From a virus: 30,129 nucleotides of DNA. Positions 1 through 30,129 of the stretch are shown one piece after another (within the stretch, counting starts at the first letter, position 1; each line of letters starts with the position of its first letter). The position numbers were made by a program, and so were the translations under genes. Below the pieces are notes generated by a model. That model saw only the letters and a program-made list of their open reading frames with translations. It was not told the origin of the DNA and ran no database searches. The DNA lies in the IMG/VR virus record IMGVR_UViG_3300047548_000630, positions 1 to 30,129 of that record, one strand, 5' to 3'.

Positions 1-1036
1 TTCTAAGGACTTTAGAACCTGCGGAGACATAACCGTAACTATCTGCTCCAATAGTTCCTGCATAAGGGATGGAACAATTTACAGGAAAACTTCGGATAAC
101 AGTTAAATCCAGTTTATTTATTTGTAACACTTCAACTGAACTTTGCTTGTATTTCCCATTACCTGCATGGTTAAGTACAATAACATTAAGAAAAGACTCG
201 ATGTGAGTATCACAGATAAGTAAGATAAAATCCGCTAGAATATCAGAAGTTAGAAGGATGTTTCCAGTAGAGTCGAGTTTAACCAATCTACCAGCGTTAA
301 GTGGTAAGTCGGCATCTACATTGGCAGGATAACTGGAATTTAAAACTCCGTAAAAATTGGTTGTATCTGAACAAAAGACTTCAGTAACACCTGATATTGA
401 AGTAGCAGGAATTGACCCATCTGTGATAGAGCCTTTGAGAACCACTTTATGCCCATCAGAATGTAGAAGAGTTATAAAAACAAGATTACCTAGGGAAGAT
501 ATATTGCAGATAGCTTTAAAACTTCCATAAGAACCCTGAGCTAGAAAAGTGAAGCTAGGGTAACGACTGGAGAATATCTTAGCTATAGCTCCAGTTGGAA
601 TGTTGTGTACAACACTTCCACCAGAGTATAGGTCTTTTCCAGAATTTCCTTCCCCTAAGTGAATTGCTAGGAAACCTCCAGTTGCTTCAGGAGCTAGTGC
701 TTCATAAACTGGGTGATATGTGTAAGCAGAATTTCTATCAAAAGTGCTTATACCTAGACCGTAAGTGAAGGGGCTGGATAGGAGATTCCCAGAAGAGTCA
801 ATATCCAGACCCCTGAATCCGCTTAGAGTATCTACTAGATAACTTTGTGTAGGGTTAATCAGTACAGGTACGAGTTCTTCCCCAAACAAGGTAGTATCTA
901 CTTTACAAAAGTAACCCTTGGAATGTTTATCTCCCGCAAACCAAACCTCAGTACCAAAGTCTTTACCTGTGAAGAGTTCTATAGTTGCTTGTAAAATTTG
1001 TCTAGCTTTTTTCGCAGGGCTGAATATAGGAATCAT
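1..1036 (-). CDS. Large protein at end of tail-tip operon, beta-propeller-like, cut by left edge
   Basis: Reading the minus strand from an ATG at 1036 gives an open frame with no stop through position 1, so about 345 codons are visible and the C-terminus is outside the window. The start is supported by GGAG five bases upstream, which overlaps the end of the preceding gene. I do not recognise the family. The visible protein is rich in Gly, Ser, Thr and aliphatic residues, with beta-type segments such as GLDIDSSGNLL and GRLVKLDSTGNILL that recur like blades of a propeller (NHL/YncE-like look). There is no signal peptide or membrane segment. Its position after the tip and fibre genes suggests a virion surface or receptor-binding component; that is inference from context only. 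Confidence 0.75.
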   Translation of the reverse strand, partial: MIPIFSPAKKARQILQATIELFTGKDFGTEVWFAGDKHSKGYFCKVDTTLFGEELVPVLINPTQSYLVDTLSGFRGLDIDSSGNLLSSPFTYGLGISTFDRNSAYTYHPVYEALAPEATGGFLAIHLGEGNSGKDLYSGGSVVHNIPTGAIAKIFSSRYPSFTFLAQGSYGSFKAICNISSLGNLVFITLLHSDGHKVVLKGSITDGSIPATSISGVTEVFCSDTTNFYGVLNSSYPANVDADLPLNAGRLVKLDSTGNILLTSDILADFILLICDTHIESFLNVIVLNHAGNGKYKQSSVEVLQINKLDLTVIRSFPVNCSIPYAGTIGADSYGYVSAGSKVLR

Positions 1037-1046
1037 AAATTCTCCA

Positions 1047-1463
1047 TTAGTGGCTTTCAAAAATGCTAAGTTGTCCTGCGCCTGCTTTACCAATAACTGA
1101 CAGAGAAGTTTTACCATTAAGTAAAATAGGTGGGAAAGGGATACCAGCACTGATAAAGAAGGACGTTCCACCAGCAGTTGCAGTTCCACCGAGTTTAACC
1201 CAGCAGTCTTCAGTTGGAGTTATCAGGATTCTTTTAGTAGAAGCATTAAAAGTTGCGCTAGTTGTAGAACTTCCTGCAGTAAAGTCCACAGTTTGACAAA
1301 CTACCTCAGATATATATTGATTTGTTTTAGTTGCAAGGTTACTGGCATCTCCAGTACCAACACCACTTCCACCTAAGTCTGCTTTAGTCAGGTATTCCAC
1401 CCCACCATCAGCTTCTTGGATAGTTTCTGCGGTCTTTTTAACCGCCAATAAGACTGTATCCAT
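1047..1463 (-). CDS. Small beta-rich tail-module protein (138 aa)
   Basis: A complete 138-residue frame on the minus strand, starting at ATG 1463 with AGGAATA upstream. The N-terminal 50 residues are polar and look helical or linker-like. The C-terminal 85 residues alternate beta strands and turns (RILITPTEDCWVKLGG, then AGIPFPPILLNG and a final LSIFE strand). This resembles the small beta-sandwich proteins often found next to siphovirus fibre genes, but I cannot name a family. It lies 10 bases before the next gene in the same direction, so co-translation is likely. A structural or fibre-accessory role is inferred from neighbours. The frame on the opposite strand here is a shadow. Confidence 0.72.
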   Translation of the reverse strand: MDTVLLAVKKTAETIQEADGGVEYLTKADLGGSGVGTGDASNLATKTNQYISEVVCQTVDFTAGSSTTSATFNASTKRILITPTEDCWVKLGGTATAGGTSFFISAGIPFPPILLNGKTSLSVIGKAGAGQLSIFESH

Positions 1464-1492
1464 AGTATATTCCTATGTTATTTTGTAAAATA

Positions 1493-1588
1493 CTAAGTTA
1501 ATCCAAAACCGTAGATTAACCATTCAGTTGTTGCAATTTTAATAGCTGCCGTGTTATTAATCCCTTTGAAATTTGATAGATTAATCAT
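1493..1588 (-). CDS. Possible 31-residue mini-protein coupled to the tail-fibre gene
   Basis: The ATG at 1588 overlaps the TGA of the fibre gene (ATGA arrangement typical of translational coupling). The frame runs 31 codons (starts MINLSNFKG, ends YGFGLT) to TAG at 1493-1495. No strong ribosome site precedes it, only a weak purine stretch. No function is recognisable. It could instead be untranslated spacer; the coupled stop-start junction is the main support. Confidence 0.4.
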   Translation of the reverse strand: MINLSNFKGINNTAAIKIATTEWLIYGFGLT

Positions 1589-2652: not shown

Positions 2653-2664
2653 TTTTATATCTCT

Positions 2665-5052
2665 CTAAATAGTTACTTGACCATCGTATCTTAGATAGCC
2701 TGTATCATAATAAGCATCGTTATCATATCTTACTTCGTGGAAAGTATATTGCACAGCTTTACTAGGAAGTTCAATGTTATTATAAGCCACTATACTAAAA
2801 AAGTATATGACATTTTTAACATCAACAGGGGCTTGAAAGTTGTAACTCTTTGAATTTACAGTAGCTTGTCCTGATGTTCCTGTAGAAGTAGTCCAAGTTA
2901 TCTGATAAGAATACACTCTATCGGGATAAGTTGTATGTTCCCAAGTTAAAAGGAAGTGTTTATGTACTATATCAGCTAAGTTAGTATGGTCGCTTACCGC
3001 AATATTGGTAACAGCCGCTACTTTTCCAATAGCAACATCTTGAAAGTTGTTTGTCGAAGGGAGTGTAACAACTTGTTCCACAAAATCATACTTTCTTTCA
3101 TCGTATTTTGTAGCCTCTATTAGGTAAGTATCTTCTTCTTTAGTAATGTTTGTAACCTTATAGGCTGTAGTCCGTTCAGACTTTTGAATAAATAAGCTAT
3201 CAGGTACAAGAGTTAGTGTTCCAGCATAAGCCGCAGATACTTCTGTCAAAGTTCCAGAGGTTTCTTCTAGCATAAGTTCTGTTGGAGTTCCATCTTCGGC
3301 ATAGACTATTAGTGTTGTAATACCTGCTAAGGTAATTGGACGGTCTAATATAAGACTTATGCCGACAGGACTAGAAGTATAGCTAACAACTTTACCAGTC
3401 TCCACAATATCAAACATATTACTATCATGGATTCTTATTGGACTTCCTTTGTGTAGAAGGACTGCTTCAATAAGACATCTAAATTGAACAATCCCATCTC
3501 CTTCCAAGTCTATCATTAGACTATCCCATAAAAGGTTTCTTCCTTTTCGTATAGCAGTAGGTACGGAAGCACAGCCTAACATAAGAAAGTCCGAACTTGT
3601 ATAGCCATAAAGGTCAATGAAATGTCCTCTAGGAAGTCCTAAGAAATCTTCTAATTCATCTACCAATACTGTAACAGTTCTTGTTCTATTTCGATTGTTA
3701 ATTTCCTGAATAGTTACATTGATTTGGGTATTATTATCTGTAATATCTGCACTAGCATATTCAAAGATACCATTCTGCACGTTTTGGTTTGTAAAGATAA
3801 TACTTTGGTCAATCTCGGCTTCTGAGAATCTTCTGTCCCAAACAATAGATACTAAGCCACCATATTCTACTAACTCTGCATTTCCCAAAGTAAGCATATC
3901 ATCTCTAGCTACTTTAACATCCTTTCTTTCATAGAATTGTCTATTGAGAGTATATCTTCGTTCTGTAATAACAGGCGCACCGTCATATTCTTGGTACGAA
4001 AGTAGCTCGTCACAGTATCGTGCATATTCTTCAAAAGTAAAATGAGCAATAAGTTCTTTTGGAATATCACATCCAACAGGATAACGGATTCCATCCACCT
4101 CGAAATAAAGCCAATCACTAAGAAAGTTATAAATGCACCAACTTAAGTTGTTACTATAGCGAAAAGCAGGAAGTCCTGCTACAGTATGGAAAGTTCCATC
4201 CCACGGTATTCGACTAGGGTCTGTGGGAGAAACCCAAGTTGTTCCATTAGAATATAATCCTAAGTCGGCGTTATAATAGTTAGTTGATGGCATCATTAGT
4301 TTAATACCAGAACCTCTTACGGAGACTGTTGGTATTCTGTTAGCAGTTTGGGAAGCATCTTCCAATCTTATAGCTATAAGAGCCGAATGAGGGTAGTTAC
4401 TAACATTTTCCATACTATAATATGTAACGTATGGAATGTTCATAGTAACTTGGTCATCTAATGGAAACAAAGAATCTGCACTATGTACTATTCTAAAGCC
4501 CCATTCATGGTCTCCATTATTCGTAGCTGGTCTATAAACTCTAAACAATGCCTGATATTGTCCGTCAGATTTTCCAATAACATTCTGTCTATTTACATAA
4601 ACATCTACAGGAGTTGTATAGCTATCCATTGTGTAAAGGTCAAAGAAAACCATAGCATAAACGGAATCACCTTCTGGAGTTATATGGACAACCTGAGTAA
4701 AGTTTACTGCAATATCTACATACTCATAATCTCCTGATACAGGTCTTACAACTCCTGTAGGGTCTTCATAAGGAAGAGGAACATCAACACCGTCAGTAAT
4801 AGCTGTGGAGTTTAGATGTGCAATGGATGCTTGGTTGACTTCTCCAAAAGTAAAAGACCAACTAGCTGTGAACTCTCCCAAACTTACATCATCTAGGTAA
4901 ATATCTTCAATGTTTGTGATTTCACCTTCCGAAACAACAAACAACATATATAATGATTGGGTTGTTTTTAAGTTAGCAGGGTAGTCAACAGGTTGGGAAG
5001 GTGCGCTACCACCTTCCCCGTATAGTCTAGGTAAATTAGAAGTTTCCATCAT
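2665..5052 (-). CDS. J: Tip attachment / central fibre protein, lambda gpJ-like
   Basis: A 795-residue protein, shorter than lambda gpJ (1,132 residues). The N-terminal half carries the gpJ pattern: a segment NLKTTQSLYMLFVVSEGEI near residues 33-51, then a stretch with WDGTF followed by SNNLSWCIYNFLSD, matching the lambda W-S/D-G-x-F ... NN-x-AWC motif of the gpJ tip hub. The C-terminal part contains a fibronectin-type-III-like segment (LLTWEHTTYPDRVYSYQITW) and ends in a short beta tail. I place the start at ATG 5052, overlapping the TGA of the gpI gene by four bases, with GGATGAG upstream; a TTG at 5067 would be less usual. The protein should cap the tail tip and carry the host-binding end. 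Gene order L-K-I-J supports the call. Confidence 0.9.
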   Translation of the reverse strand: MMETSNLPRLYGEGGSAPSQPVDYPANLKTTQSLYMLFVVSEGEITNIEDIYLDDVSLGEFTASWSFTFGEVNQASIAHLNSTAITDGVDVPLPYEDPTGVVRPVSGDYEYVDIAVNFTQVVHITPEGDSVYAMVFFDLYTMDSYTTPVDVYVNRQNVIGKSDGQYQALFRVYRPATNNGDHEWGFRIVHSADSLFPLDDQVTMNIPYVTYYSMENVSNYPHSALIAIRLEDASQTANRIPTVSVRGSGIKLMMPSTNYYNADLGLYSNGTTWVSPTDPSRIPWDGTFHTVAGLPAFRYSNNLSWCIYNFLSDWLYFEVDGIRYPVGCDIPKELIAHFTFEEYARYCDELLSYQEYDGAPVITERRYTLNRQFYERKDVKVARDDMLTLGNAELVEYGGLVSIVWDRRFSEAEIDQSIIFTNQNVQNGIFEYASADITDNNTQINVTIQEINNRNRTRTVTVLVDELEDFLGLPRGHFIDLYGYTSSDFLMLGCASVPTAIRKGRNLLWDSLMIDLEGDGIVQFRCLIEAVLLHKGSPIRIHDSNMFDIVETGKVVSYTSSPVGISLILDRPITLAGITTLIVYAEDGTPTELMLEETSGTLTEVSAAYAGTLTLVPDSLFIQKSERTTAYKVTNITKEEDTYLIEATKYDERKYDFVEQVVTLPSTNNFQDVAIGKVAAVTNIAVSDHTNLADIVHKHFLLTWEHTTYPDRVYSYQITWTTSTGTSGQATVNSKSYNFQAPVDVKNVIYFFSIVAYNNIELPSKAVQYTFHEVRYDNDAYYDTGYLRYDGQVTI

Positions 5053-5735
5053 ACAAATCTCATCCAATTAGAAGGATAGTTCATACCTTCTGCAAAAGTA
5101 GCTACAGGAATTACATCAGTATAAACAGGCAAAGTTTGTTCCAATCGTAGCCCAATCCGAACTCCCCCAAACAAACAATTACCAAAAACAACAGGAACAC
5201 TTCCTCCTTGTTCAGTTATATTCGGAACACCATTAAATAACTTAGATAGTTGGGAAGGGTCTTGGTTATTGTCTAGTTTGTTTTGGGGTGTTAAGGCTCT
5301 AACTAACATACCTAGCCCGATAACGAGACCAATAGTAACTACGGTAGCAACAGCATAACCTGCAATAGCAGCACCTAAACCTACAGTTGCTACTAAAGTA
5401 CCCGCCGCAGCCGCAGCAGATACCGCCGCCGCAGTTGTCCCAGCTATAGCAGCCATAGTGGTTGTAGCTATAGTAGTAAAAAGAGCCTCCCCTTCTAGCT
5501 TAGGACAAATAACTAAGATTGGGTATTCTGAGAAATCAAAATCTAACATTGTCGGTAAGATTGGAAAAGCCTTTTCTTTCTTTTCATCGTATAGCGAATA
5601 GCAAAGTTCCTTCGTAGCAACCTGTTTAAAAATCTTTGGCTTATTTACTCGAAGATAATCATAAAGTTGGACAAGATTAGGTATGTTTGCCTCAAAACTT
5701 TCTTCGTATTCTGGTGTATAGAAAATTATTTTCAT
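5049..5735 (-). CDS. I: Tail assembly protein, lambda gpI-like
   Basis: A 228-residue protein. Residues 1-80 look like the ubiquitin-like N-terminal domain of gpI (MKIIFYTPEYEES start). Residues 81-150 form a long Ala/Gly/Val-rich hydrophobic stretch. The C-terminal region has the family signature FNGVPNITEQGGSVPVVFG followed by a GGVRIG segment. The chosen ATG at 5735 sits one base after the gpK stop and is preceded by GGAAAC; a longer frame reaching 5804 would run into the gpK gene and adds an unlikely leader. The four-base overlap with the gpJ gene suggests coupled translation. In lambda, gpI acts in initiating tail-tip assembly and is not abundant in the mature virion; the same role is inferred here. 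Confidence 0.88.
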   Translation of the reverse strand: MKIIFYTPEYEESFEANIPNLVQLYDYLRVNKPKIFKQVATKELCYSLYDEKKEKAFPILPTMLDFDFSEYPILVICPKLEGEALFTTIATTTMAAIAGTTAAAVSAAAAAGTLVATVGLGAAIAGYAVATVVTIGLVIGLGMLVRALTPQNKLDNNQDPSQLSKLFNGVPNITEQGGSVPVVFGNCLFGGVRIGLRLEQTLPVYTDVIPVATFAEGMNYPSNWMRFV

Positions 5736-5736
5736 C

Positions 5737-6516
5737 TTAGTTTCCGATAGCAGGATGACGGTATACTTTTGTAATCTTATTAAGATAAAGTTCCAAAGGT
5801 TCAATCTTTGAATACTCTCCTTGATTCAGGATTTGTCCATTTCCAAGATAAATCATAGCATGATTATCTCTAAAACCAAGAATGGAAGTAATCAAAAGGT
5901 CTCCTTTTTGAAGTTTTCCTGTTTGGGTAATATCTATAAGATTGTTACTTTTAATAGAAGCATCTACGTTATCTTGTTGAAGAAGATTCTGTGCTTGTAG
6001 TTGGTTATCTTCCAAGACCCTTTTAACTAAATCCGCCCAAGATTTTTTCTCAGTAAGATGGTCAGTTAGAGGAATCTTAATGTCAATGTCAAACTCAAAA
6101 TGGTAGTAGTCTCGAATTAGACAGCCACAATCGGAAACTCCAAAGATATAAGGACGGTTTAGGTAATCTTTGGAAGGGTCGGGAGGTACTTTAATAGGTT
6201 GAAAGTATTGTCCATTGTAGAGCGCGGCTATATACAAAGGAAGTCCTAGTTCAATAGCTAAAGTAAGGTCAGCCATTGAGGGTGTTTGGATATGTAGATG
6301 ATTCTTTTGAGTATGAGAATGGATAACTGCATAGATAGAATCTTTTTGGTCTAAGAAACGCAAAGGACATAGTTCAAAAGACTTATTAGGTTCTTTGGAC
6401 AGGTTAGTTTGTTCATAGAAAGTTCCATCTTTATAGATATAGCCGCACATTTCATTTGGAAAAGCTCTTCTAGTAGCTAATTCTATTTGCATTAAGGTTT
6501 CTTTTGGAAGTTTCAT
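5737..6516 (-). CDS. K: Tail tip peptidase with JAMM and NlpC/P60 domains, lambda gpK-like
   Basis: A 259-residue two-domain protein. Residues 1-110 match a JAB/MPN metalloprotease fold with an apparently complete JAMM set: E22, H66, H68, S80 and D83 (HSHT followed by PSMADL). Residues 120-255 match NlpC/P60, with nucleophile C130 in SDCGCLIRDYY and H219 in DNHAMIYLGN. Both catalytic sets look intact. The family cleaves peptide cross-links of peptidoglycan and helps assemble or open the tail tip during infection. The start at ATG 6516 is supported by a strong AGAGGAG. It lies between gpL-like and gpI-like genes, as in lambda. Confidence 0.92.
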   Translation of the reverse strand: MKLPKETLMQIELATRRAFPNEMCGYIYKDGTFYEQTNLSKEPNKSFELCPLRFLDQKDSIYAVIHSHTQKNHLHIQTPSMADLTLAIELGLPLYIAALYNGQYFQPIKVPPDPSKDYLNRPYIFGVSDCGCLIRDYYHFEFDIDIKIPLTDHLTEKKSWADLVKRVLEDNQLQAQNLLQQDNVDASIKSNNLIDITQTGKLQKGDLLITSILGFRDNHAMIYLGNGQILNQGEYSKIEPLELYLNKITKVYRHPAIGN

Positions 6517-6537
6517 AAGTATCTCCTCTTATAGCTA

Positions 6538-7062: not shown

Positions 7063-7069
7063 ATTAACT

Positions 7070-7122: not shown

Positions 7123-7158
7123 ATAAACTTAACGCTTCAAACATATAAAGGTTGTCTT

Positions 7159-7482: not shown

Positions 7483-7485
7483 GCT

Positions 7486-8088: not shown

Positions 8089-8090
8089 GT

Positions 8091-10058
8091 ATGAACATTC
8101 CTGCAACTTTAAAGAACATCTCAGAAAGATTACTCCTAGCTAATTGTTTGAAACACTTTCGACCAATCCTTCGTATATCTACAATGGAATGGTCTAAACG
8201 CTACCGAAGTATAAGTAGTGCCGAAACTTCTTTTGGTGTAGGAAAGTTTGACCCAGACCATACCCCATATATGGAATACGTCTATGAGTGTTTGGACAAC
8301 TTACGGATTCCAGTTGTTTGCTCTCAAAAATCTGCTAGAGTAGGTTGGACAGAGGTCATCAATAACTATCGAGGAAGAAGAATCCATACTCAACCATGTA
8401 ATATGTTATTAGGTTTTCCAACTAAGGAAGATGCAAGAACCTTCGGAAAAGAAAAATGGAAATGGTTTTTAGAAAATACTCCGATACTATCTAAGATAGT
8501 GGATGTTGGTATCTCAGAAAACCGTAAATCGGTGTTTGATTATGCTTTTAATGGGGGAAGTTTGCGGTTGCGAACTTTGGGAAGTATTGGTTCACTAAAA
8601 TCCAATAATGTTCCTTACATCGAGATTGAAGAACCTGATGACATCAAAGATAACATTGGCGGTCAAGGGGATGTTCTAGCTAACTTAAAAGAACGTCAAA
8701 AACTTGTACCTAAAACAATGAAGAAACTTATCTTTGGGGGTACTCCAACGCATCTTGACTTCTCTATGGTAGAAAATGCCATAAAAACAAGTAATCAACT
8801 TATCTTTAAAGCAGAATGTCATGAATGTAAAGAACTTGTACCAATGGACGGCTCAAGTTTTGATTGTATAAAGTATGCAGAATTTCCTGAAAGAAAGATA
8901 GATGAAATCTATGGTAAGCATGACCCTGAATCTGCAAAGTTCTTTTGTCCTTTTTGCAATACCGAATGGACTTTCGAGCAGAAAAACCAAAATATCAGGG
9001 AAGGAAAAAAGTATGGCTTTGTTGACCATACAGGAAACTTCTCTAAAGGATGGCATCCTAAGAAACCTGAAATCACAGATACTTTTGGATTTATTTTCTC
9101 AGAGCTTATGTCTCCCTTTGAAGGAAGTCATTTTGTTGAATTAGCTAAGAAACGTATTTTAGCGGAGCTTGACCTAGCTAAAGGCAAAGAAGGTTTAATG
9201 AAAACCTTTTATAATAACTCTCGTGGTATGCCTTATGCAAGTGGAATCTCTGCTCTTTCCGCAGAAGAAATGAGAAAACTTCGCAGCAACTATCCAGAAG
9301 GTATTGTTCCTTCAGAAGGTCTTATTCTTACGATGGGAGTTGACGTACAGATAAACCGTTTCGCGTATGTTATCCGTGCTTGGGGAAGAAATGGAAATTC
9401 TTATCTAGTAACTTGGAGAGAAATCTTTGGGAATACCCAAAACTACCAAGACCCTGTTTGGACGGAACTTTATAACATTATCACTGCTGATTATCCACAT
9501 AGTAATGGAAAAACTCTCAAAATCTCAGCTTGTAGCATAGATAGTGGTTGGAATACAGAACTTGTGTACCGTTTTGTTAAAGAACTTAACCAAGTTAAAG
9601 GTTACGAACAAGTTTTCGCTACTAAAGGTTCTGATGATTTGCGTTTTTCACATGATGAAATCTATAATGAACCTGCTGACTTAGATATTCTGACTGACAA
9701 AGCTGCTAGAAGAACTTTAGCTGAGACTATGGGTGTTAAAGTCTATAACGTGGGAGCGCACAAAGCTCATAACGAGATTCTTAGAAGGGTTGGTCTGAAT
9801 TTGATTGAAGGCTGTAACCAAGATAGATATTTCTTTAACGAACAAAGTTATGGGATGTATGAAGAACAAATGACTTCTTGTAGAAAGTTAATAGATGTTA
9901 GAAGTGGTACACAAAGGGAAGTTTATAAGCTAGTAAGTGGGAAAAGGAAGGAGGCGATGGACTGCGAGAAGCTGATTTGTCATGCAGCTTACGCTATTGG
10001 AGTACCCTCTTACCCGCCACAATACTGGGCTGCGATAGAAAAATATCTGTATGAGTAA
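8091..10058 (+). CDS. Terminase large subunit, lambda gpA family
   Basis: A 655-residue packaging motor. The ATPase domain has the GpA-type Walker A variant QKSARVGWTE at residues 79-88, and an acidic Walker B-like strand VPYIEIEEPDD at 174-184. A zinc-binding pair CHEC (243-246) and CPFC (286-289) sits between ATPase and nuclease parts. The nuclease domain has acidic residues in MGVDVQINRFAYVIRAWG (D418) and CSIDSGWN (D484), expected for an RNase-H-like metal-dependent nuclease. Length is close to lambda gpA (641 residues). It cuts concatemeric DNA and drives it into the prohead through the portal. The start ATG 8091 lies two bases after the small-subunit stop, with GAGGG upstream. Confidence 0.95.
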   Translation: MNIPATLKNISERLLLANCLKHFRPILRISTMEWSKRYRSISSAETSFGVGKFDPDHTPYMEYVYECLDNLRIPVVCSQKSARVGWTEVINNYRGRRIHTQPCNMLLGFPTKEDARTFGKEKWKWFLENTPILSKIVDVGISENRKSVFDYAFNGGSLRLRTLGSIGSLKSNNVPYIEIEEPDDIKDNIGGQGDVLANLKERQKLVPKTMKKLIFGGTPTHLDFSMVENAIKTSNQLIFKAECHECKELVPMDGSSFDCIKYAEFPERKIDEIYGKHDPESAKFFCPFCNTEWTFEQKNQNIREGKKYGFVDHTGNFSKGWHPKKPEITDTFGFIFSELMSPFEGSHFVELAKKRILAELDLAKGKEGLMKTFYNNSRGMPYASGISALSAEEMRKLRSNYPEGIVPSEGLILTMGVDVQINRFAYVIRAWGRNGNSYLVTWREIFGNTQNYQDPVWTELYNIITADYPHSNGKTLKISACSIDSGWNTELVYRFVKELNQVKGYEQVFATKGSDDLRFSHDEIYNEPADLDILTDKAARRTLAETMGVKVYNVGAHKAHNEILRRVGLNLIEGCNQDRYFFNEQSYGMYEEQMTSCRKLIDVRSGTQREVYKLVSGKRKEAMDCEKLICHAAYAIGVPSYPPQYWAAIEKYLYE

Positions 10059-10122: not shown

Positions 10123-10965
10123 ATGGAACAATTTACTTTGCAAGAAATAGAAGACACTTTTTTAATGAAAATACTCCCTAACACTGAACGAGATGGGGAG
10201 TGTTTAAATTTCTTAGGTGGAAAAACGGCTAGTGGGTATGGGTCAGTTCTTATAAATGGTATAGCTATTGGGACACATAGAGTAGCGTATGCTTACTACC
10301 ATAATACTAACAGATTTAATAACTTATTTGTTTTACATAGTTGTGATAACCGTAAGTGTTTAGCTAAAGAACATTTACGTCTTGGAACACACCAAGAAAA
10401 TATGCAGGACATGGTAGATAGAAACAGGACAACCAGAAAACTTACAGATGCAGAGATTATAGAAATATACACTTCTGATAAGCCAACTGAATATTTTGCA
10501 GATAAGTATTCTATTACTAAACAAACAATAAATACTATCCGCAATAGAACTAATTGGGCTGAGGTTACGGAAGGTTTAGTTTGTGGAGTACCAGAAGGCA
10601 AAGAACGTGCTAGAGAAAGTTTTGCCATTTTGACCAAAGAACAGGTTAAAGAAATCTATTTAGCCGAAGATACTTTAAGAAATTTAGCTAAGAAATTTGG
10701 TACAGAAATTACTACCATTTCTAAGATAAAATGTGGTATAAATTGGCAGGATGTTACAGCCTCGTTAGGTAAAGCGGGTAGTTCACAGCACCCGTTCAAA
10801 GCTAAACTAACTAAAGAAGATGTAGCATATATCTATACTTCCAAAGAATCTTCAAAAGATTTAGCTACAGCTTTTAATATTTCTATTAGAAGTGTTAATC
10901 AAATTAGAAGTAAAGAAACTTGGAAAACTTTTACAGATACTTTAGACAAAAAGGAAACATCATGA
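10123..10965 (+). CDS. HNH endonuclease with three C-terminal helix-turn-helix-like repeats
   Basis: A 280-residue protein. Residues 25-100 are an HNH_3-type nuclease: THRVAYAYYH at 51-60, then VLHSCDNRKC, EHLRLGT and QENMQDMVDR through residue 100, giving the H...N...H metal site and CxxxxC pattern. Three related repeats of about 44 residues follow at 106-149, 169-212 and 228-271. Each runs K/I-LT-x-E/A-x-(V/I)-x-x-IY, then a polar turn, then I/T-I-x-x-I-R/K, and ends in W-x-x-(V/F)-T; they look like DNA-binding helix-turn-helix units. Such enzymes cut specific DNA and are either mobile (homing) or assist packaging when beside terminase. Its stop overlaps the next start by ATGA, so it is well built into the operon. 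Confidence 0.88.
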   Translation: MEQFTLQEIEDTFLMKILPNTERDGECLNFLGGKTASGYGSVLINGIAIGTHRVAYAYYHNTNRFNNLFVLHSCDNRKCLAKEHLRLGTHQENMQDMVDRNRTTRKLTDAEIIEIYTSDKPTEYFADKYSITKQTINTIRNRTNWAEVTEGLVCGVPEGKERARESFAILTKEQVKEIYLAEDTLRNLAKKFGTEITTISKIKCGINWQDVTASLGKAGSSQHPFKAKLTKEDVAYIYTSKESSKDLATAFNISIRSVNQIRSKETWKTFTDTLDKKETS

Positions 10966-11581: not shown

Positions 11582-11763
11582 TGTCTAAAAGTGTACCACC
11601 TCTTATACCTATAGCTAAGAGACCTAAGCCACAGGTTGTAAAAACTATAAAAAATAGCGTACAAACAGACCAAATCAAAGCTGTGGGTTTACACATACCT
11701 AAATTAGATTTAACAAATCTAACTACATTACTAGAGTTAGATGTCGGAGGTTCTAATGACTGA
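11581..11763 (+). CDS. 60-residue protein between gpW and portal, unknown
   Basis: Starts at ATG 11581, sharing one base with the gpW stop (TAATG), with GGAG upstream, and overlaps the portal start by eight bases. The N-terminal half is Pro/Lys-rich and likely unstructured (VPPLIPIAKRPKPQ). The second half has alternating hydrophobic residues (LHIPKLDLTNLTTLLELDV). It has no recognisable family. Tight coupling on both sides suggests it is truly translated, perhaps as a head-assembly accessory. Confidence 0.65.
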   Translation: MSKSVPPLIPIAKRPKPQVVKTIKNSVQTDQIKAVGLHIPKLDLTNLTTLLELDVGGSND

Positions 11764-13204
11764 CCCAACTTATGTCGTTCCAAACTTATTCCAAACAAAC
11801 TATGAAGCAGCTTCTACGGAGTATGCTTTAGCTCATAGACAAGCTGCTATGGGAGACGCTGATACTCTTGGAGTTTCTGAGATTGTTTTCCTGATAGCTA
11901 GAAGCCGATATATGTGCCGCAACAATGCAGTTGCATCTTCTGCACAAGATAAATATGCTACTAAGTTGGGAAGTATTAAAGTTTCTTGGAACAATCAAGA
12001 CGGTTCTAAACATTCCATTATGCAAGATTTATGGGATAGTTTTGCAGAAAGTCCTATGCTTGATGGGTTTGGTAATCTCGATACTTGGCAAGTTGCGTGT
12101 AATCATGAACGATTCGCTAGTGGAAAAGCCATTACAAGATTCCATACAATAGCTAGTGACCATCCTATTCCTCTGAAACTTCAAGGTATTCCTGCTGAGT
12201 ATTGGGATATATCCTATACAGGAAGTGATAAACCTGAACTTAACCAAAATGGGAGAGTTACTAGGTATGGTATTACTTTTAAGAATACTAAACCTGAGTT
12301 ATATCATTTCTATAAGGAAGGATACTTTGCAATAAACAATCCTACTAATGTAGATACTTGGAAGCGTGAAGCTATAGATGCAAATGACATCATCAATAGC
12401 TTTGAACGAAAAAATGCTAATCAATGGATTGGAGTTCCTCTCTTAACAAGTTGTCTTTTAACTATCTATGCTTTGGAAGACCTTTGTGATGCAACTACCA
12501 AACAACAAACAAATGCTTCGGCTGTTAGCTGGATAGTTTCCACAGAAGGAAGTCCATTGCTAAGAACTCCTGTAGGAAGTGTTATTACGGTCGGAGACCG
12601 AGACCAAGCTGACCCTAATACAAAGACTATCTTCCGAAGTGCATCAGGTAATGTACATTACTTAGCGACAGGGGAAAAACTCCAACAGGTTCAAAGTACA
12701 GACATTGGTAATAACTTAGTTCCTTTTGTGAAAAGTGAGTTGGAATTAGTCGCAGCCGCATTGAATATGCCTTACTTTGAGCTAAAAGGTGATACTTCGG
12801 GCATGGACTTTAGTTCTATTCGAGCAATTCTTATCCAATGGCGCAACCGAATTGAATTTATCTATAATATTATAGTTATTCCAACTCAAATGCGTCCTTT
12901 AGTAGCTAGATTCCAAAACTATGCTAAACTAAAGTTTAAAGTAGCAAATGCAAAGCCTACATTTATCTTACCTAGATGGTATGGGGTTGATGATAGAAGT
13001 GATGCGGAAGCTGACTTAATTGAAGTAGCTAGTGGATTTACTCCTATAGAAGCTATTTGGATGGAACGTGGCTATACTAAGGAACAAATAGAACAAAGTT
13101 TGAAACTTATTAAAGAACTAGGTTTGGATGGGATATTGGCTGATAGTGGAAAAGATAAAGCCGCGCAAACTCAGCAACAGATGAATCAACAGGCGGGAAG
13201 TTAG
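11756..13204 (+). CDS. B: Portal protein, lambda gpB family
   Basis: A 482-residue portal. I choose ATG 11756 because GGAGG sits five bases upstream; an in-frame ATG at 11741 has no such site. The family pattern is present: SEIVFLIARSRYMCRNNAVASSAQDKY near the N-terminus, a W-x-x-A-C-N-H-E region where the lambda family has the G-E/R-F-A-S-G-K segment (ERFASGKAI), then the wing and stem with NQWIGVPLLTSCLLTIYALEDL and a later LNMPYFELKGDTSGMDFSSIRA. The C-terminus is Gln/Lys-rich. It forms the dodecameric gate of the head through which terminase moves DNA, and binds scaffold and gpW-type connectors. Confidence 0.93.
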   Translation: MTDPTYVVPNLFQTNYEAASTEYALAHRQAAMGDADTLGVSEIVFLIARSRYMCRNNAVASSAQDKYATKLGSIKVSWNNQDGSKHSIMQDLWDSFAESPMLDGFGNLDTWQVACNHERFASGKAITRFHTIASDHPIPLKLQGIPAEYWDISYTGSDKPELNQNGRVTRYGITFKNTKPELYHFYKEGYFAINNPTNVDTWKREAIDANDIINSFERKNANQWIGVPLLTSCLLTIYALEDLCDATTKQQTNASAVSWIVSTEGSPLLRTPVGSVITVGDRDQADPNTKTIFRSASGNVHYLATGEKLQQVQSTDIGNNLVPFVKSELELVAAALNMPYFELKGDTSGMDFSSIRAILIQWRNRIEFIYNIIVIPTQMRPLVARFQNYAKLKFKVANAKPTFILPRWYGVDDRSDAEADLIEVASGFTPIEAIWMERGYTKEQIEQSLKLIKELGLDGILADSGKDKAAQTQQQMNQQAGS

Positions 13205-21906: not shown

Positions 21907-21908
21907 AT

Positions 21909-22372: not shown

Positions 22373-22389
22373 TCCTCGTGTGTTTCTTT

Positions 22390-22414: not shown

Positions 22415-22437
22415 AAAAACTTTTGGAGTTCTTTATT

Positions 22438-25400
22438 ATGGCTGAATCAAAGATAACTTATCTATTAAAATTAGATACTTCTGGGGCAGTGCAGGAAGTT
22501 GATAAACTATCCAAAAGTTTTGACCAACTAGATAGAGAACAACAGAAGTTTGCTAAAAATGCAAAAGAAGTTTCATTAAGTAAGTTAAAAGAATCTTTAA
22601 AAGATTTGGAAAGTTTAAAAGATAGCTTACAAAAAGCAGGAACTACCGCCACGCTTTTTAATAAATCTTTAACAGAAGCTACTCAAAAATTATTTGAACG
22701 CTTACAAACTACGGAAGCCCCTAAGCTAATAAAATTTTTAGAAACTCAAATAAATCTTACTGAACAATTAGCTACCGAACAACGTAAGTTATTAAATGAT
22801 AAGATTGCGGCTCAAAATGCTAGGTATGCACCTACTAAAGCAGCTATGACTGCGGAAAGTCCTTCTTTCTCTAAAGGAATGGCTCAAGCAGAAGCTAATG
22901 CTCTAAAACTTCAAGCAGATTTATTAGCTAAACGTAAAACACAAGAAGCCGCTAGACAAGCACAACATAAAGCTGAAATTCAGGCTGAAGTTGCTAGAAG
23001 AGCCGATATAGCTAGATTAGCTAGTACAGCCCAACTTGCCTATAACATAAAATTCATCCAACAACGCCCTACGAATTTACCCACTGCCACAACCTCAGCA
23101 TTTTTAAAACCCCCTGCAAAATGGAAACCTTATGATGAAGATTTAAAATTACTTCAACAAGCTAAGGAAAAAACTGAGAAGAGCCTTGCAAATGCTATCT
23201 CCAACTTAAATGCTTTAAAAAGTCTTAGAGCAAATCAAGAAGCAACTTGGAAAGCAGATTGGGATGCTCTTGGTAAAGCTAATTGGGAAGCTATCCAAGC
23301 TAAACAGAAAGAAATTGCTACTGAAAAAGCTCTTATAGCTGAACTTGATAAAGAGATTGCTAGAAAACAGCAACTAGAGGGACAAAGAAAGAAAGCAGAA
23401 GCAAGACAAACTAATAAACTTAACTTCTACCAAACTGGGTTTGGACAATTTACTGCCGTAGCAGAAAGGTTAGCTGAAAGAACTCCCGCACAAAGAAACG
23501 CAGATACTAAGGCGGCTAGACAAGAATATCAAGATAGACTTGCTGCCGAAAGGCAGGCAGCTAAAGAACGGGAAACTATTGCCACACAAGCTGCTGCACT
23601 CAGAAAACAACAAGAAAAAGAATTAGCTGATTTTCTAGCTGGCTTAGAACAAGACAGATTAAACAAAGCAAGAGCTACTGCAAAACAATTTTTTGCCGAG
23701 AAAAAAGCCTTTGAGGAACAGGCATATAAGGATGTTGCCGCTAAAGCTAACCAAGAACTTGCGGCTATTAAAAAAGCAGAATCCGATACACTGGTCGCTA
23801 AACAAACTTATGCAAAAGAAATGATAGCTCAGGAAGAAGCTATTAAACAACAATTTATTGCGTCTCAAAAAGCCCAACAAAAGGCTGCGGAGGATTATAC
23901 CAAAGCTATGGCAGCACAAGGAGAGGTTTTAAAAGCTCAGTTCCTAGCTAATCAACAACTACAAGCTAAACAACAAGCTGCAAATGCCTATGCACAAGCT
24001 ATGGCTGCTCAGGGTAATACCATGAAAGCCCAGTTCCAAGCTCAATTTGCTCCTAAGTCTGGGGTTATTGGAACTGCTACCACTCCAGTATCTCCAGTAT
24101 CTAAAGCACCGTTCACTTCACAAGCGGCACAACAAGCATCTCAAAACTATAATGCTGCGACTAAAGCGGCGGCTGCTTATCAAGCACAAGTACAGCAAGC
24201 TAATACTGCCTCCGTACTTTTAGATTCTGCCATAGTACATTTCAACGCTCAAGTCGAAAAGTTGGTAAATAGTTTTGCAAAAACTAAAGAAGCCTTTGAT
24301 GTTTATAGAAATGGAATTACCTCTAGTCAAAGAGCTACCTTAGATTTAGCTGAAAGTATTAAATATGAAATAGGTCTAAGAGAACGTCAAAAACAAGCCT
24401 ATGCAAATCTAAGTCCTGAACTTAAAAAAGTTACACAAGCTAGACAAGACGCTGCATTCTTTGAACAAGAAATTGCAAGGGCTACAAAAAGTTATTACGA
24501 AAGTATAAGCACCGCTAAAACAGCGCAAGAAGTTCTTAACTTAAAAAATACTTTCCAACAAACTTTTGCAGTATTAGATGCTGGTTATAAGAAAGCTATT
24601 GCAGACGGTAAAGCTGCCGAACAAAACTTTATGGCACAAGTTGCCGCCGTAGAACAACTTAGAAAAGTTAGTCTAGCTAGTATTGACCGTAATCAAGCTA
24701 ACTTTGCTTCTTCTGGACGTTTTGCTTATCTACAAGGTACAGGAGCTTCTACTCAAGAAGTTCAAATGCAGAAACTTAGAGATACTATAGCTAAGACAGA
24801 AGCGGCTTATGCAAAGTTAGTAGCTAGAACTAAAGAAAAACTAGGTGCAACTGATGACCCAAATAAAATTGCTAAGATAACTCAGCACTATGACCGTTGG
24901 TCTGCTAAACTTTCTGAGATTAACAACAAAAATCAAACTCTCTTAGGTAATGTTGAGAAACTTGCTGGGGCGCACAAACCTTTATTAGAAAGAATCTTTG
25001 ACTTAGTTGTGGGTTATCGGTTAATTAACTCAGCAGTTAATACCTTCACTAATGCTCTACGAAGTGTTCCAAACATGGGACTTCAATATGAGACTACCTA
25101 TGCTACTTTGAAGGCAACTTTCAGCGTTACAGCTAAAGTCAATGAAGAACTTAAATTCTTAGACCAATTAGCCCAAGATGCTGGTATTAGCATTGATTCT
25201 TTGAGAACCAGTTTTGTTGATTTTGCGGCTAGTGCGAAGTTTTCTGGTGAAAAAGTAGAAAACATCAATGAGATTTTTGCAAACATATCTAAAGCAGGTA
25301 TGGTATTACATCTTCCTGCTGATAAGATGAAGAGTGCTTTCGTAGCTCTTAACCAAATGTATGCAAAAAACCAAGTAATGATGGAAGAGTTAAAACGACA

Positions 25401-28400
25401 ACTCGGTAACCAACTTCCTGCGGCGGTTAATATTTTTGCATTATCTATGGGTAAGACAACTCGTCAACTTATGGATGATATGAAGAAAGGTTTGGTAGTT
25501 CCAAAAGAAACTATCCTTAATTTCTCTCGCACTTATGCAGCTATCTTTGCTGACCCAGCTAGTATGGCTTATGCTAGTCAAGGGGTTAATGCCCACATAC
25601 AAAGACTTTCTACTGCCTGGACTAATTTAGCTGTAGAAATCTATGAAAAATCCAAAGGACTTATTAAAGGTGGTTTGGATGTTGCTACAGCTTCTTTAGA
25701 ATTTTTTAGAACTCATATAGAAGGTGTGACGGATGTAGTAGTAGGTTTAAGCCTTGCACTAGGGACTTCTTTAGTTGTTCAACTAGGGAAAGTTACACTA
25801 GCTATGATGGCTACTAGAAATGCTGCTATAGCTTCTGCGGGAGCTATGACAGCCCTTACTGGTGTTAGTGCAACTGCTGGGGGTGTCAGTGCTTTAGCTA
25901 CCTTGGGAACTTACTTTAAAAATATTGCCTTAAGTATCCCACCTTGGTTACGCTTAATAGCTGTACTAGGTACTGCTGGGATGGTTCTAAAAAATGTAGA
26001 AGCGGGAACTACCGTAGTAACTTCGTCTATAAAAACTCTAAATGGTCAGGCGGTTAAGCTAGAAGAAAGTATTACTATCGGAGATATGGTATTAGCTGGT
26101 TGGGATGCTCTTATAGCTAAGGCACAGAAGTTTTTAAATATTCAGGATGAGATAAAAGCTAAAGCCGCCGCACAAAATCCCAAAGAAACTAGAAATACAG
26201 TTGTACCTTTTGTAGCTGAACAAGTAGCTAGGCTATCACCGCTAAGTTCAGTAGGTGGTACGTTGGTTAGAACAGGCTACGCGGCACTCTATGCGTTAGC
26301 TGAACAAGCTAAAGAAAAAGAAGTTTTAGCAAAAGAAGCTGCTACCCAGACAGAACTTTTAAATGAAAAAATCAAAGAAACTCTTTTAGCTGGTACATCT
26401 GGTACTGTAGATGAAACTATGGTAGGGGTTAATAAGGTAGTTACTACTGCTTTAACTCGTATTGACCAAGAATTTAATTTAGCTACTTCTAAGATTAAAA
26501 GCAGTACCGATTTAGCTACTGCCAAAATTACAGGTGAAATAAACAAAACTGCTGCTTTAGAAAAAGTTGGTGCAATTACAGCTAAAGAATCTTATGAGAA
26601 ACAATTAGCTCTACAAAAACAAATAAATAAACTAAAACTAGATGCTATTGATGCAGAAATCAAAGCCTTAGACGAGAAAATCAAAAAAGAAGAAGCTATT
26701 AGCCAAACTCAGATAGATAAATCTAAAGAAGCTACTACCTATCAGGAAGCCTATAAGAACTTAGGTATAAAACAAAGTTTTAGACAAGAAATTCCTAAAG
26801 CTCTAGTAGAAATTGGTGCTTATAAGTCTATTGAAGATGCCGCTACAGCGTTGCAAGACAAAGAAGCATACAAACTTCAAGATACAACAATTCAAAGAGC
26901 TATAGACCAATATAATGCTACACATCCAAATCAAGGTTTTAAAGCATTAGAAGATGTTTCAGAAGCTGCTATGAAACAGGCTAATGAGAATACTGTAAAA
27001 ACTTGGAAAATCTATGAAGCTAGGATGGATGCTCACGCGGCTATCTTAAATAGAGTTTCCGAAGGTGTCCTAGAGACTAATAGAATTGCAGAAGAAGAAA
27101 GAAAACTGTTTGAAGAATTGGTAGCTAAGATGCCTCAAACAGCTAACACTTTCCAAGCCGATGAAGCCTCTGCTAAGATTGGTGCATCTATTTGGGGACA
27201 AAGATATTTTGCAACTGATGCTGCTAAAGTAGCTTCTGGAGTAGATAAAACAACTCTTAATAAAGTCTTAGAACTTATTACTAAAGCAGCCGTAAAAGAA
27301 GGAATAGACCCTGAGTTTGCCAAAACAATAGCTAGTATAGAAAGTAAGTTTAATCCTGCTGCTATGTCAACTTTTGTTCCTAAGAAAGGAGCTTATGCTG
27401 GTCAAGTTCAACACGCTTATGGGGTTATGCAGTTATACCGTCCTGATAGAAAAGGTTTTACTGGCGGTACTTTAGAAGAAAATATTAACGAAGGGGTTAA
27501 GCAATTAGCTAGTGAACTTAGATACTTCAATGGGGATTATACTAAAGCAGCCGCCGCATACAATGCAGGTAGAGCTGCGGTAGAAAAACACAGTGCAGAG
27601 ACAGCATACAAAGAAACTAGAGACTATGTAGCTAAGATGAAAGCCTTATATCAACCTTCTACTTCAGCTATTAAGTCAGGCGAACTTAAATCAGAGGAAG
27701 CTACAAGAGAATCTCTTATTAAACGACAAGAGAAAGTAGCTGAGAAAAATCTTATAACTTTACAACAAAAGAATGAAGAAGAAGTCAAAGCCTTAGAAGA
27801 AAGATTTGCAGCTTTGGGAAGAGTTACCGAAGAACTACAAAGCACTTTTAGCTTTACTAAGACTAAACAAGAGCAAGCCTTAGCTAGATTACAAACTTCG
27901 GCTATCCCATTGACAGAAACCCAACTAGCAGACCAGACTGCGGCTATAAAAGAAAAGTTTGCTCCTGAACTTACTAAAGAAATTGATGCAATTATTGCTA
28001 GTATTCAGGAAAAACTTAAAGTTACAGTGGTAGAAAGTACAAAACAAGGTCTAAGAGCAGAGATTGTCAACCTAGAAAAAGAACGCGCAACTATCCAAGC
28101 CGAAGCCTTACAAGCAAAAGTTACTGTAGCTATTAACAAAGTAATTCCACTCCAAACCGCCCTTGAACGCAAGCAATTTGAAATTCAAAAATCTCTTGAA
28201 GATAGTTTAGAAATTTTCAATGAAGAAACTTTTAAACTTAATCAGCAAATCAGTCAGGAAGAAACTTTAAAACTGCTTGCAACCGAGAAAGAAAGATTAA
28301 AAGATAAAAGTAATGGTCTTACTGAGGAAGAGATTAATAAGAATACCCAACTTATTGCTTTAGCGGAGAAACAAATAGCTCAGTTGAATCAAATTGAACT

Positions 28401-29412
28401 TATTAAGGCTAGAATAGCTAGAGAAAGAGACCTTTCAGCTTCTACTAGAGAACTTGCTGACGCTCAAGCTGCTAATCTTCCTTTGAACAGAGCTTCTCGT
28501 ATGGGGGTTAGCGGTGGGTTTGTAGGTGCTATTGCTACGGAAGAAGCTGCAAACTATAAGTATGCTGAGAAAATGGCTAGTTATCAGCAGGATATTGTAG
28601 GATTCCAAGCTGAACAAAGCATCGCAAAGACTACAACTGAATGGAACAAATTACAAACTCAAATTGAACAGACTACTTCCGCAATGTATGACTTGTCCTT
28701 AGCTAAAGACGCGGTGCTTAACCAAGCTGTAGCTGATACTATGGACTCTATTAGCGGACACTTTGTTGCTTGGGCTAATGGTGCTGAAAAAGCCAAAGAT
28801 GCGTTTCGCGGCATAGCTATTGACTTTGCTAAAATGGTTCAGGAAATCATTATGAATGAACTTAAGATGCTTGCGGTTAAGGGTATCATGAGTTTGATTT
28901 CTGGAGGATTCTCTGGGGGCGGTGGAGTTGGTTCCGTTTCTAGTTTAGGTGGTGGAAGGGCTGGTGTTCTTGGCTTTGCTTCTGGCGGACAAGTTTCTGG
29001 TGTGGGTACAGGAACTTCCGATAGTATTCCTGCTATCGTTCCGATTGGTAGCTATGTTCTTAATGCCAAAGCCACTGCAAAAGCAAAACGCAATAGACTT
29101 ATCAACCTAAGTCATGGTGAGGTGGTATTTTCCCCCGAACAAGCGGCTCAAATTGGTTTAGATAACCTAGAAAGAATGAACAAACAAAACTTTGCTAGTG
29201 GTGGTTTAGTTGGTGGAACTACTACTTCTACCTCAGCTAAAGCAGCAAAACAAAACTCTAATGTCTATAATATCAATGTAGCTGTACCACAAGGAACTTC
29301 TAATCCACAACAATTTGGTAATGATGTAGCAGTGGCTATGATGAAAGCCATAGCTAAAGAAGAAGCAAAGAAACAAGTTAATCAATACAATAAACTTAAA
29401 GCAAGGGGATAA
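22438..29412 (+). CDS. Tail tape measure protein with lytic transglycosylase domain
   Basis: A 2,324-residue protein. I choose ATG 22438 with GGAG nine bases upstream; a TTG at 22423 would start inside that site. Residues 1-860 are coiled coil and Ala/Gln/Lys-rich. Residues about 880-1070 match the tape-measure N-terminal domain (LKATFSVTAKVNEELKFLDQL, MMEELKRQLGNQLPAA). Hydrophobic segments lie at about 1095-1185. A soluble lytic transglycosylase domain spans about 1611-1735, with catalytic E1635 in ASIESKFNPAAM, then AYGVMQL (1660-1666) and AAYNAG (1706-1711). More coiled coil follows, then a Gly-rich end with FASGGQVSGVGTGTSDSIPA typical of tape measures. It sets tail length and, after ejection, cuts peptidoglycan and helps DNA enter. 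Confidence 0.96.
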   Translation: MAESKITYLLKLDTSGAVQEVDKLSKSFDQLDREQQKFAKNAKEVSLSKLKESLKDLESLKDSLQKAGTTATLFNKSLTEATQKLFERLQTTEAPKLIKFLETQINLTEQLATEQRKLLNDKIAAQNARYAPTKAAMTAESPSFSKGMAQAEANALKLQADLLAKRKTQEAARQAQHKAEIQAEVARRADIARLASTAQLAYNIKFIQQRPTNLPTATTSAFLKPPAKWKPYDEDLKLLQQAKEKTEKSLANAISNLNALKSLRANQEATWKADWDALGKANWEAIQAKQKEIATEKALIAELDKEIARKQQLEGQRKKAEARQTNKLNFYQTGFGQFTAVAERLAERTPAQRNADTKAARQEYQDRLAAERQAAKERETIATQAAALRKQQEKELADFLAGLEQDRLNKARATAKQFFAEKKAFEEQAYKDVAAKANQELAAIKKAESDTLVAKQTYAKEMIAQEEAIKQQFIASQKAQQKAAEDYTKAMAAQGEVLKAQFLANQQLQAKQQAANAYAQAMAAQGNTMKAQFQAQFAPKSGVIGTATTPVSPVSKAPFTSQAAQQASQNYNAATKAAAAYQAQVQQANTASVLLDSAIVHFNAQVEKLVNSFAKTKEAFDVYRNGITSSQRATLDLAESIKYEIGLRERQKQAYANLSPELKKVTQARQDAAFFEQEIARATKSYYESISTAKTAQEVLNLKNTFQQTFAVLDAGYKKAIADGKAAEQNFMAQVAAVEQLRKVSLASIDRNQANFASSGRFAYLQGTGASTQEVQMQKLRDTIAKTEAAYAKLVARTKEKLGATDDPNKIAKITQHYDRWSAKLSEINNKNQTLLGNVEKLAGAHKPLLERIFDLVVGYRLINSAVNTFTNALRSVPNMGLQYETTYATLKATFSVTAKVNEELKFLDQLAQDAGISIDSLRTSFVDFAASAKFSGEKVENINEIFANISKAGMVLHLPADKMKSAFVALNQMYAKNQVMMEELKRQLGNQLPAAVNIFALSMGKTTRQLMDDMKKGLVVPKETILNFSRTYAAIFADPASMAYASQGVNAHIQRLSTAWTNLAVEIYEKSKGLIKGGLDVATASLEFFRTHIEGVTDVVVGLSLALGTSLVVQLGKVTLAMMATRNAAIASAGAMTALTGVSATAGGVSALATLGTYFKNIALSIPPWLRLIAVLGTAGMVLKNVEAGTTVVTSSIKTLNGQAVKLEESITIGDMVLAGWDALIAKAQKFLNIQDEIKAKAAAQNPKETRNTVVPFVAEQVARLSPLSSVGGTLVRTGYAALYALAEQAKEKEVLAKEAATQTELLNEKIKETLLAGTSGTVDETMVGVNKVVTTALTRIDQEFNLATSKIKSSTDLATAKITGEINKTAALEKVGAITAKESYEKQLALQKQINKLKLDAIDAEIKALDEKIKKEEAISQTQIDKSKEATTYQEAYKNLGIKQSFRQEIPKALVEIGAYKSIEDAATALQDKEAYKLQDTTIQRAIDQYNATHPNQGFKALEDVSEAAMKQANENTVKTWKIYEARMDAHAAILNRVSEGVLETNRIAEEERKLFEELVAKMPQTANTFQADEASAKIGASIWGQRYFATDAAKVASGVDKTTLNKVLELITKAAVKEGIDPEFAKTIASIESKFNPAAMSTFVPKKGAYAGQVQHAYGVMQLYRPDRKGFTGGTLEENINEGVKQLASELRYFNGDYTKAAAAYNAGRAAVEKHSAETAYKETRDYVAKMKALYQPSTSAIKSGELKSEEATRESLIKRQEKVAEKNLITLQQKNEEEVKALEERFAALGRVTEELQSTFSFTKTKQEQALARLQTSAIPLTETQLADQTAAIKEKFAPELTKEIDAIIASIQEKLKVTVVESTKQGLRAEIVNLEKERATIQAEALQAKVTVAINKVIPLQTALERKQFEIQKSLEDSLEIFNEETFKLNQQISQEETLKLLATEKERLKDKSNGLTEEEINKNTQLIALAEKQIAQLNQIELIKARIARERDLSASTRELADAQAANLPLNRASRMGVSGGFVGAIATEEAANYKYAEKMASYQQDIVGFQAEQSIAKTTTEWNKLQTQIEQTTSAMYDLSLAKDAVLNQAVADTMDSISGHFVAWANGAEKAKDAFRGIAIDFAKMVQEIIMNELKMLAVKGIMSLISGGFSGGGGVGSVSSLGGGRAGVLGFASGGQVSGVGTGTSDSIPAIVPIGSYVLNAKATAKAKRNRLINLSHGEVVFSPEQAAQIGLDNLERMNKQNFASGGLVGGTTTSTSAKAAKQNSNVYNINVAVPQGTSNPQQFGNDVAVAMMKAIAKEEAKKQVNQYNKLKARG
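23809..24048 (+). repeat. Three tandem coiled-coil repeats inside the tape measure
   Basis: Starting at residue 458, three units of 29-31 residues follow a consensus Y-x-K/Q-x-M-x-AQ-x-x-x-x-K-x-QF-x-A-x-Q (starts YAKEMIAQEEAIKQQF, YTKAMAAQGEVLKAQF, YAQAMAAQGNTMKAQF). Starts are at 23809, 23896 and 23989; the last is cut short. Duplication within a tape measure is a way to change tail length. Confidence 0.75.
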
Positions 29413-29418
29413 TAGATT

Positions 29419-29733
29419 ATGCAAGCAATGCCTTTACCATGTAAGATACTTAAGAACTATGCTAGTAGTGTAGTTGTAGATGTGGTTTCGTTTGGAAATA
29501 TTCCAAAAGATATTCAGAGCCGCAATCCACATAGTATTGGAGAAACTTTTGAAGTAGTTTGGGGTAATCTTACTTATGCTGACGTGGAAACAATAGAGAT
29601 TGCGTTACTGAATAGCAAAGGTACTGGTAGGTTTAGCTATGAGGGCGGAGAGTATTATCTTGTAGATACTTATACCATTAAAGTTACCAATAATAAGCCT
29701 TCCATAAATGCGTCCTTTGTGAGGGTATCATGA
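29419..29733 (+). CDS. Minor tail tip protein, gpM-like
   Basis: A 104-residue protein with AAGGGG before ATG 29419, six bases after the tape measure. The pattern VSFGNIPKDIQSRNPHSIGETFEVVWGNLTYADVETIEIALL then GTGRFSYEGGEYYLVDTYTIK is that of the lambda gpM family (F-G-x-x-x-x-x-x-R then W/G-N-L, a helix, a G-F-x segment and a final strand pair). gpM follows the tape measure in lambda too and joins the tail-tip complex. It overlaps the next gene by ATGA. Confidence 0.72.
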   Translation: MQAMPLPCKILKNYASSVVVDVVSFGNIPKDIQSRNPHSIGETFEVVWGNLTYADVETIEIALLNSKGTGRFSYEGGEYYLVDTYTIKVTNNKPSINASFVRVS

Positions 29734-30129
29734 CAATCTATGCCTTACCCTTAACTAATAAGCTATCAGGAACTTATACAAAGACTGTAAGTTTTACGTC
29801 CATGCAATGTAAAGCTAACAACCAATACCAAAGAAAGATGGGAGTTGGAAAAGATAATCTGCAAATTTCCTACGAGTTGAAGTATATTGGACTTATTCAA
29901 AGTGAAGTTTCTACAGTAGAAACTCTTTTTAGTATTCAAAGTCTAGGAGATGTCATTAGTTTTAAGTCTCCAGTAGATTCTTTTGCAAGGTTGTATGCAA
30001 AGCCGACTTCATGGCAAAAAGAAAACTACTATGGCTGGGCAAAAGACCAACCATATCAGAAACTTACTGATTTGAGTTTCACTTTGGTACTTGGAAACGA
30101 GTTGACACCTATAGCAAAAACAAATCTAG
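29730..30129 (+). CDS. Second gpM-like tail tip protein, cut by right edge
   Basis: Starts at ATG 29730, overlapping the previous stop (ATGA); 133 codons are visible with no stop. It contains YQRKMGVGKDNLQISYELKYIGL, then a helix with VSTVETLFSIQSLGDVISFKSP, and a late RLYAKPTSWQKE...YQKLTDLSFTLVLG, which follows the gpM layout (R-x-G-x-x-N, helix, F-x-x-P, W, and final beta strand) more clearly than its neighbour. It could therefore be the true gpM while the gene before is a divergent paralogue. The last visible residues continue into the right edge. Confidence 0.72.
   Translation, partial: MTIYALPLTNKLSGTYTKTVSFTSMQCKANNQYQRKMGVGKDNLQISYELKYIGLIQSEVSTVETLFSIQSLGDVISFKSPVDSFARLYAKPTSWQKENYYGWAKDQPYQKLTDLSFTLVLGNELTPIAKTNL

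Follow-up and report, generated by a model that had tools for sequence, protein, structure and literature searches.

Palindromic restriction sites are missing from an uncultured tailed-phage contig and nearly so from its closest relatives

Avoidance of restriction sites by phages has long been known, and the absence of such sites is therefore in itself no surprise. A survey of almost 4000 viruses credits site avoidance to orthodox Type II systems, sees sites wholly or almost wholly eliminated from roughly one viral genome in ten, with stronger elimination in non-temperate phages, and reports that Type IIG sites are not avoided in general (Rusinov et al. 2018, PMC6286503). Its analysis sets each site against a known host, whereas the DNA described here is a contig of an uncultured bacterial virus. 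The contig, called the window below, is an entire IMG/VR record of 30,129 bases, which is classed as linear and is probably a fragment. It is a strong further case of restriction-site avoidance.

For comparison, words were counted as for the window in a handful of chosen phages, which are not a random sample. Anabaena phage A-4L (KF356198), a different phage placed in Saffermanviridae, resembles the window in the absence of GATC, GGCC and GGNCC (observed/expected 0/88, 0/57 and 0/69) and of 25 of 56 other hexamer palindromes, where 2.7 absences are expected; unlike the window, it retains CCGG (25/62) and CCNGG (50/71) and eliminates GAWTC. Staphylococcus phage K, counted over its first 50 kb, is also free of GATC (0/125), GGCC (0/29) and GGNCC (0/33), but it retains CCGG and CCWGG, is without GCWGC, and the depletion of its hexamer palindromes is no more than mild (11 of 52 absent, 6.5 expected). 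T7 shares with the window low counts of GATC (6/149), CCWGG (2/69) and AAGCTT (0/11) and differs from it in retaining GGCC and CCGG; CTGAAG is nearly absent from T7 (1/28), as it is from the close relatives described below. Phi29 has no GGCC (0/25) or GGNCC (0/28) but retains GATC, while a Flavobacterium phage has eliminated GATC and GGCC nearly as the window has. Lambda and Marinobacter phage PS3, in contrast to the window, eliminate no tetramer palindrome.

The predicted terminase, portal, capsid, tape measure and tail genes (Table 1) make up a lambda-like structural module and mark the contig as part of the genome of a lambda-like tailed phage; a DNA methyltransferase and an HNH endonuclease are encoded as well. 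The 2329-aa ORF has tail genes on one side and small minor-tail-like ORFs on the other. No tyrosine integrase was found in the contig or in eight relatives, which is weak evidence from contigs that are fragments and fits the stronger elimination that the survey saw in non-temperate phages.

Table 1. Predicted genes of the window discussed in the text.
Feature	Position	Strand	Basis and remarks
Tail tip protein, lambda J-like	2665..5067	-	PHROG 31
Tail assembly protein, NlpC/P60 domain, lambda K-like	5737..6516	-	PF00877, PHROG 30
Terminase large subunit, lambda gpA-like	8091..10058	+	PHROG 15, E 2.5e-112; query for relatives
HNH endonuclease, probably a homing enzyme	10123..10965	+	PF13392, PHROG 59; outside the purge
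Portal protein, lambda family	11741..13204	+	PF05136, PHROG 21
DNA methyltransferase, N6_N4_Mtase	13206..13937	+	Pfam PF01555, E 6e-33; PHROG 67
Major capsid protein, Phage_cap_E	15899..17194	+	PF03864
Probable tape measure protein, 2329-aa ORF	22423..29412	+	inferred from length and position

The contig is 62.9% A+T. An earlier note on this DNA had reported that GATC, GGCC and CCGG are wholly absent, and exact counting bears this out: each is found 0 times, where the note had allowed for a handful, and, with reverse complements pooled, they are the sole tetramers with a zero count. The copy numbers that it had given for independent bases, on the order of 100 GATC and about 30 each of GGCC and CCGG, are likewise close to the calculated 102, 35 and 35. 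When all 16 palindromic tetramers were counted, these three were zero and the other 13 were present, including GCGC and CGCG, as the note had said (AGCT 263, TTAA 236, TATA 164, ATAT 147, AATT 147, TGCA 133, CTAG 132, GTAC 88, CATG 46, ACGT 39, TCGA 29, CGCG 18 and GCGC 17 copies).

First-order Markov expectations for GATC, GGCC and CCGG are 63, 44 and 19, and second-order expectations 82, 21 and 35. We also used a synonymous-codon shuffle that preserves each protein and the codon counts of each gene. Over 300 shuffles, it gave 80.2±6.5 GATC, 17.7±3.7 GGCC and 22.3±4.3 CCGG, the lowest counts in any shuffle being 59, 8 and 12. The Markov and codon nulls thus predict 18-80 copies where none is found, and since the shuffles yield about 80, 18 and 22 sites, protein sequence and codon usage are not the explanation.

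The three tetramers stand, but as a list they are incomplete. GGNCC is absent from the contig (29-36 expected from the Markov models, 8 from the codon null), CCNGG occurs once (36 and 10, respectively), and interrupted GGNNCC once against 22.8 expected. Hexamer palindromes are missing in 46 of 64 cases, among them AAGCTT, CAATTG, ACTAGT, TCTAGA, AGTACT, GTTAAC and GAATTC; setting aside the twelve with a purged tetramer inside them leaves 52, of which 34 are absent (5.8 expected). In coding sequence, all 64 hexamer palindromes together occur 229 times, against 450±18 after codon shuffling. The depleted words (GATC, GGCC, CCGG, GGNCC, CCNGG, AAGCTT and others) are mostly palindromes and match common specificities of Type II enzymes.

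Since the record extends no further than the window, a full-genome check was possible only on relatives. Twenty-two viral contigs encoding a related terminase were found, all of them fragments or of unknown completeness. The five closest (loci L024-L027 and L031-L038) are G001, G002, G003 and G010, from metagenome 3300020045, and G004, 66 kb long, from another metagenome; their terminases are 73-82% identical to that of the window. Listed as G001, G002, G003, G010 and G004, these contigs contain 0, 1, 0, 0 and 4 GATC, 1, 1, 0, 0 and 0 GGCC, and 0, 3, 2, 2 and 0 CCGG; GGNCC and CCNGG occur 0-2 times each, and the 66-kb contig is purged over its entire length. More distant relatives differ among themselves: G009 is purged too, and G007 (L028-L030) retains GGCC and CCGG and is without TTTAAA, AATATT, ATTAAT, CAATTG and GGWCC. 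G007 also lacks 32 of the 64 hexamer palindromes, with fewer than one absence expected.

An artefact of sample or assembly was rejected, because L009, a contig of 33% GC from the metagenome of the first four relatives, retains 13 GATC and 13 CCGG. Nor is elimination universal at similar composition: the sites survive in part or in full in L009, G007 and L023 (a contig described below), and lambda and PS3 have lost no tetramer palindrome. The purge pattern tracks lineage, not sample. The value of the window lies in the comparative set that it forms with relatives whose DNA is 65-71% identical over shared genes, which have one purged core in common and in which further sites are lost nearly all-or-none. 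In this set, elimination is seen operating under natural conditions, and predictions follow from it about the enzymes of the host.

To follow the sites through divergence, codons differing between the window and a relative were redrawn from the window's synonymous pool. Per relative, 26-37 GATC, 5-10 GGCC and 8-12 CCGG are predicted to have re-arisen, and 0 were seen. Selection has therefore been maintained since the lineages diverged, and the absence of sites is not merely inheritance from a site-free ancestor.

Other sites distinguish the window from its relatives. There is no AAGCTT in the window, against 18-76 in the relatives, and no CAATTG, while GAGTC and GTMKAC are reduced to 2/23 and 3/15 (observed/expected, coding sequence); all four words are mostly near expectation in close relatives. 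At 94 aligned positions, a relative has AAGCTT; it is kept in the window at 0 of the 94, and 31 of the losses do not alter the protein. For comparable non-palindromic hexamers, the rate of retention is 16.5%. The five comparisons share ancestry, so the 94 positions are not independent events, and zero AAGCTT is kept in each single-relative comparison as well.

CTGAAG, an asymmetric site of Type IIS/IIG enzymes (Eco57I, AcuI), is avoided most strongly in the five closest relatives (observed/expected 1/24, 0/28, 0/21, 1/22 and 1/40, that is, 3 found for 135 expected) and more weakly in the window (6/32). This avoidance is worth noting because the survey found none in general for Type IIG sites. 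In the coding sequence of G009 and G011, CTGAAG lies above expectation (50/34 and 67/37).

The methyltransferase gene of the window is inserted between the portal gene and the next head gene. Its predicted product carries conserved amino-methyltransferase motifs in the order DIPY, then TMGSGTT, and, with head genes as neighbours and no adjoining restriction enzyme gene, it has the features of an orphan methyltransferase. A search of the contigs of G001, G002, G003 and G010, the four closest relatives, gave no match, which is weak evidence because the contigs are fragments; a homologue 52% identical lies elsewhere in G004. The earlier note had supposed that the methyltransferase may protect a further site. 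In this regard, CTGAAG is less avoided in the window than in the five relatives, but G004, for all its homologue, still avoids it. Because the contigs of relatives that gave no match are purged alike, the methyltransferase is not required for the purge and was rejected as its cause. As a separate observation, G011, another relative, has nearly eliminated GATC (4/74) and carries a gene for a Dam-type (PF02086) methyltransferase (L041-L042, G011:31266-31838).

We tentatively suggest, while thinking it somewhat less probable than the contrary, that the clade preserves the traces of a restriction pressure that has changed over time in nature, with a fixed purged core, lineage-specific sets (AAGCTT, CAATTG, GAGTC and GTMKAC in the window, CTGAAG most strongly in the relatives), and a methyltransferase in the window that possibly relaxes one avoidance. 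If this is true, the site lists of uncultured phages could serve as a record of the enzymes met by each lineage.

The absence of sites is very probably due to classical avoidance, in which selection rids a phage genome of the targets of Type II restriction enzymes. Every such target that enters a cell unmethylated would expose the phage DNA to cutting, so that variants with fewer sites would survive, and small, often synonymous changes could over time remove every site of the enzymes that are met repeatedly. Sites so removed would include GATC, GGCC, CCGG, GGNCC/GGWCC, CCNGG/CCWGG and many hexamer palindromes. The core of the list is shared across the clade, and the lineage of the window would have met, and purged, the sites of its own set in addition. 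We infer that the selection comes from restriction endonucleases and that enzymes of this kind are present in the host range. The long exposure to restriction systems that the earlier note had proposed is well supported, as the depletion exceeds the codon nulls, is clade-wide, is maintained through divergence and changes between lineages in units of restriction sites. Two observations count against classical avoidance: CTGAAG is avoided in the clade, yet belongs to an asymmetric class that the survey did not find generally avoided, and the over-representation of TAGCTA (see below) is left outside its account.

Selection by some other defence or process that reads these words is improbable, be it an enzyme that cuts methylated DNA (DpnI-like or Type IV) or interference with mismatch repair or host regulators. 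Counts alone cannot separate cutters of unmethylated sites from cutters of methylated ones, and phage DNA coming from a methylating host would bear methyl marks; but many different palindromes are hit, including AAGCTT and CAATTG in the window only, and changing Type II enzymes fit this better than does any one mechanism.

Less probable still is erosion by deamination, in which host methylation at GGCC, CCGG and CCWGG, all frequent targets of cytosine methyltransferases, would turn C into T without any cutting. These three words are indeed purged and one product, TCGG, is above expectation (94/59). The products CTGG (128/154), GGTC (117/105) and GGCT (169/190) show no excess, GATC, a target of adenine methylation, is equally absent, and deamination would leave some copies rather than remove all. 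That the words are missing through base content, neighbour effects and codon choice, with no selection on words, is hardly credible: the DNA is indeed rich in A+T, and further words depart from the codon null (AATT 141 vs. 282, and poly-A runs), but the nulls still call for 18-80 copies, the minima being at least 8, the equally G+C-rich CGCG and GCGC are present, and L009 retains its sites at 33% GC.

The list of lost sites does not lead to a host. The suggestion that it may identify the host range found no support: no single host could be named, and the Anabaena and Staphylococcus phages share the elimination of GATC and GGCC, and the Flavobacterium phage nearly does. Phages of unrelated hosts thus lack the same sites, and the idea that the site list, whose main entries these three phages share, would reveal the host was rejected. 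When 84,980 genomes were scanned with the terminase, a single match came up, on a contig (L023) of a Candidatus Roizmanbacteria MAG from Lake Pavin; the contig is probably misbinned and was dismissed as a host link. The L023 terminase is 63% identical to that of the window, and L023 retains GATC (15/19). Among named phages, the best terminase match is that of PS3 (34% identical) and the capsid protein has no match, whereas polymerase, tail-tip and portal searches gave matches scattered over many different hosts.

Two Rep_3 replication initiators of plasmid type, together with RepL-like proteins, are encoded in G004 (L025:8898-9683 and L025:13872-14606), where no tyrosine integrase was found; replication of this relative is perhaps plasmid-like. 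As host clues, the Rep_3 initiator gave plasmid matches of only about 30%, and the tRNA search found one gene, a tRNA-Gln in G004.

Beside the absence of most other palindromic hexamers from the contig stands an excess of TAGCTA. It is the most over-represented hexamer, with 72 sites between positions 580 and 29634. Coding sequence holds 68 copies, where codon shuffles give about 21. The excess is seen in both possible reading frames (60 vs. 19.4 and 8 vs. 1.4). The trend is present in close relatives as well (52/24 in G001, 67/42 in G004), and G007 is without it.

The left ends of G001, G002 and G004, contigs from two metagenomes, lie less than 50 bases from where one and the same tail gene ends (starts 31, 32 and 48), and the window stops inside this gene. 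The shared left ends possibly mark a true terminus of the genome, or else a repeat at which assembly breaks off.
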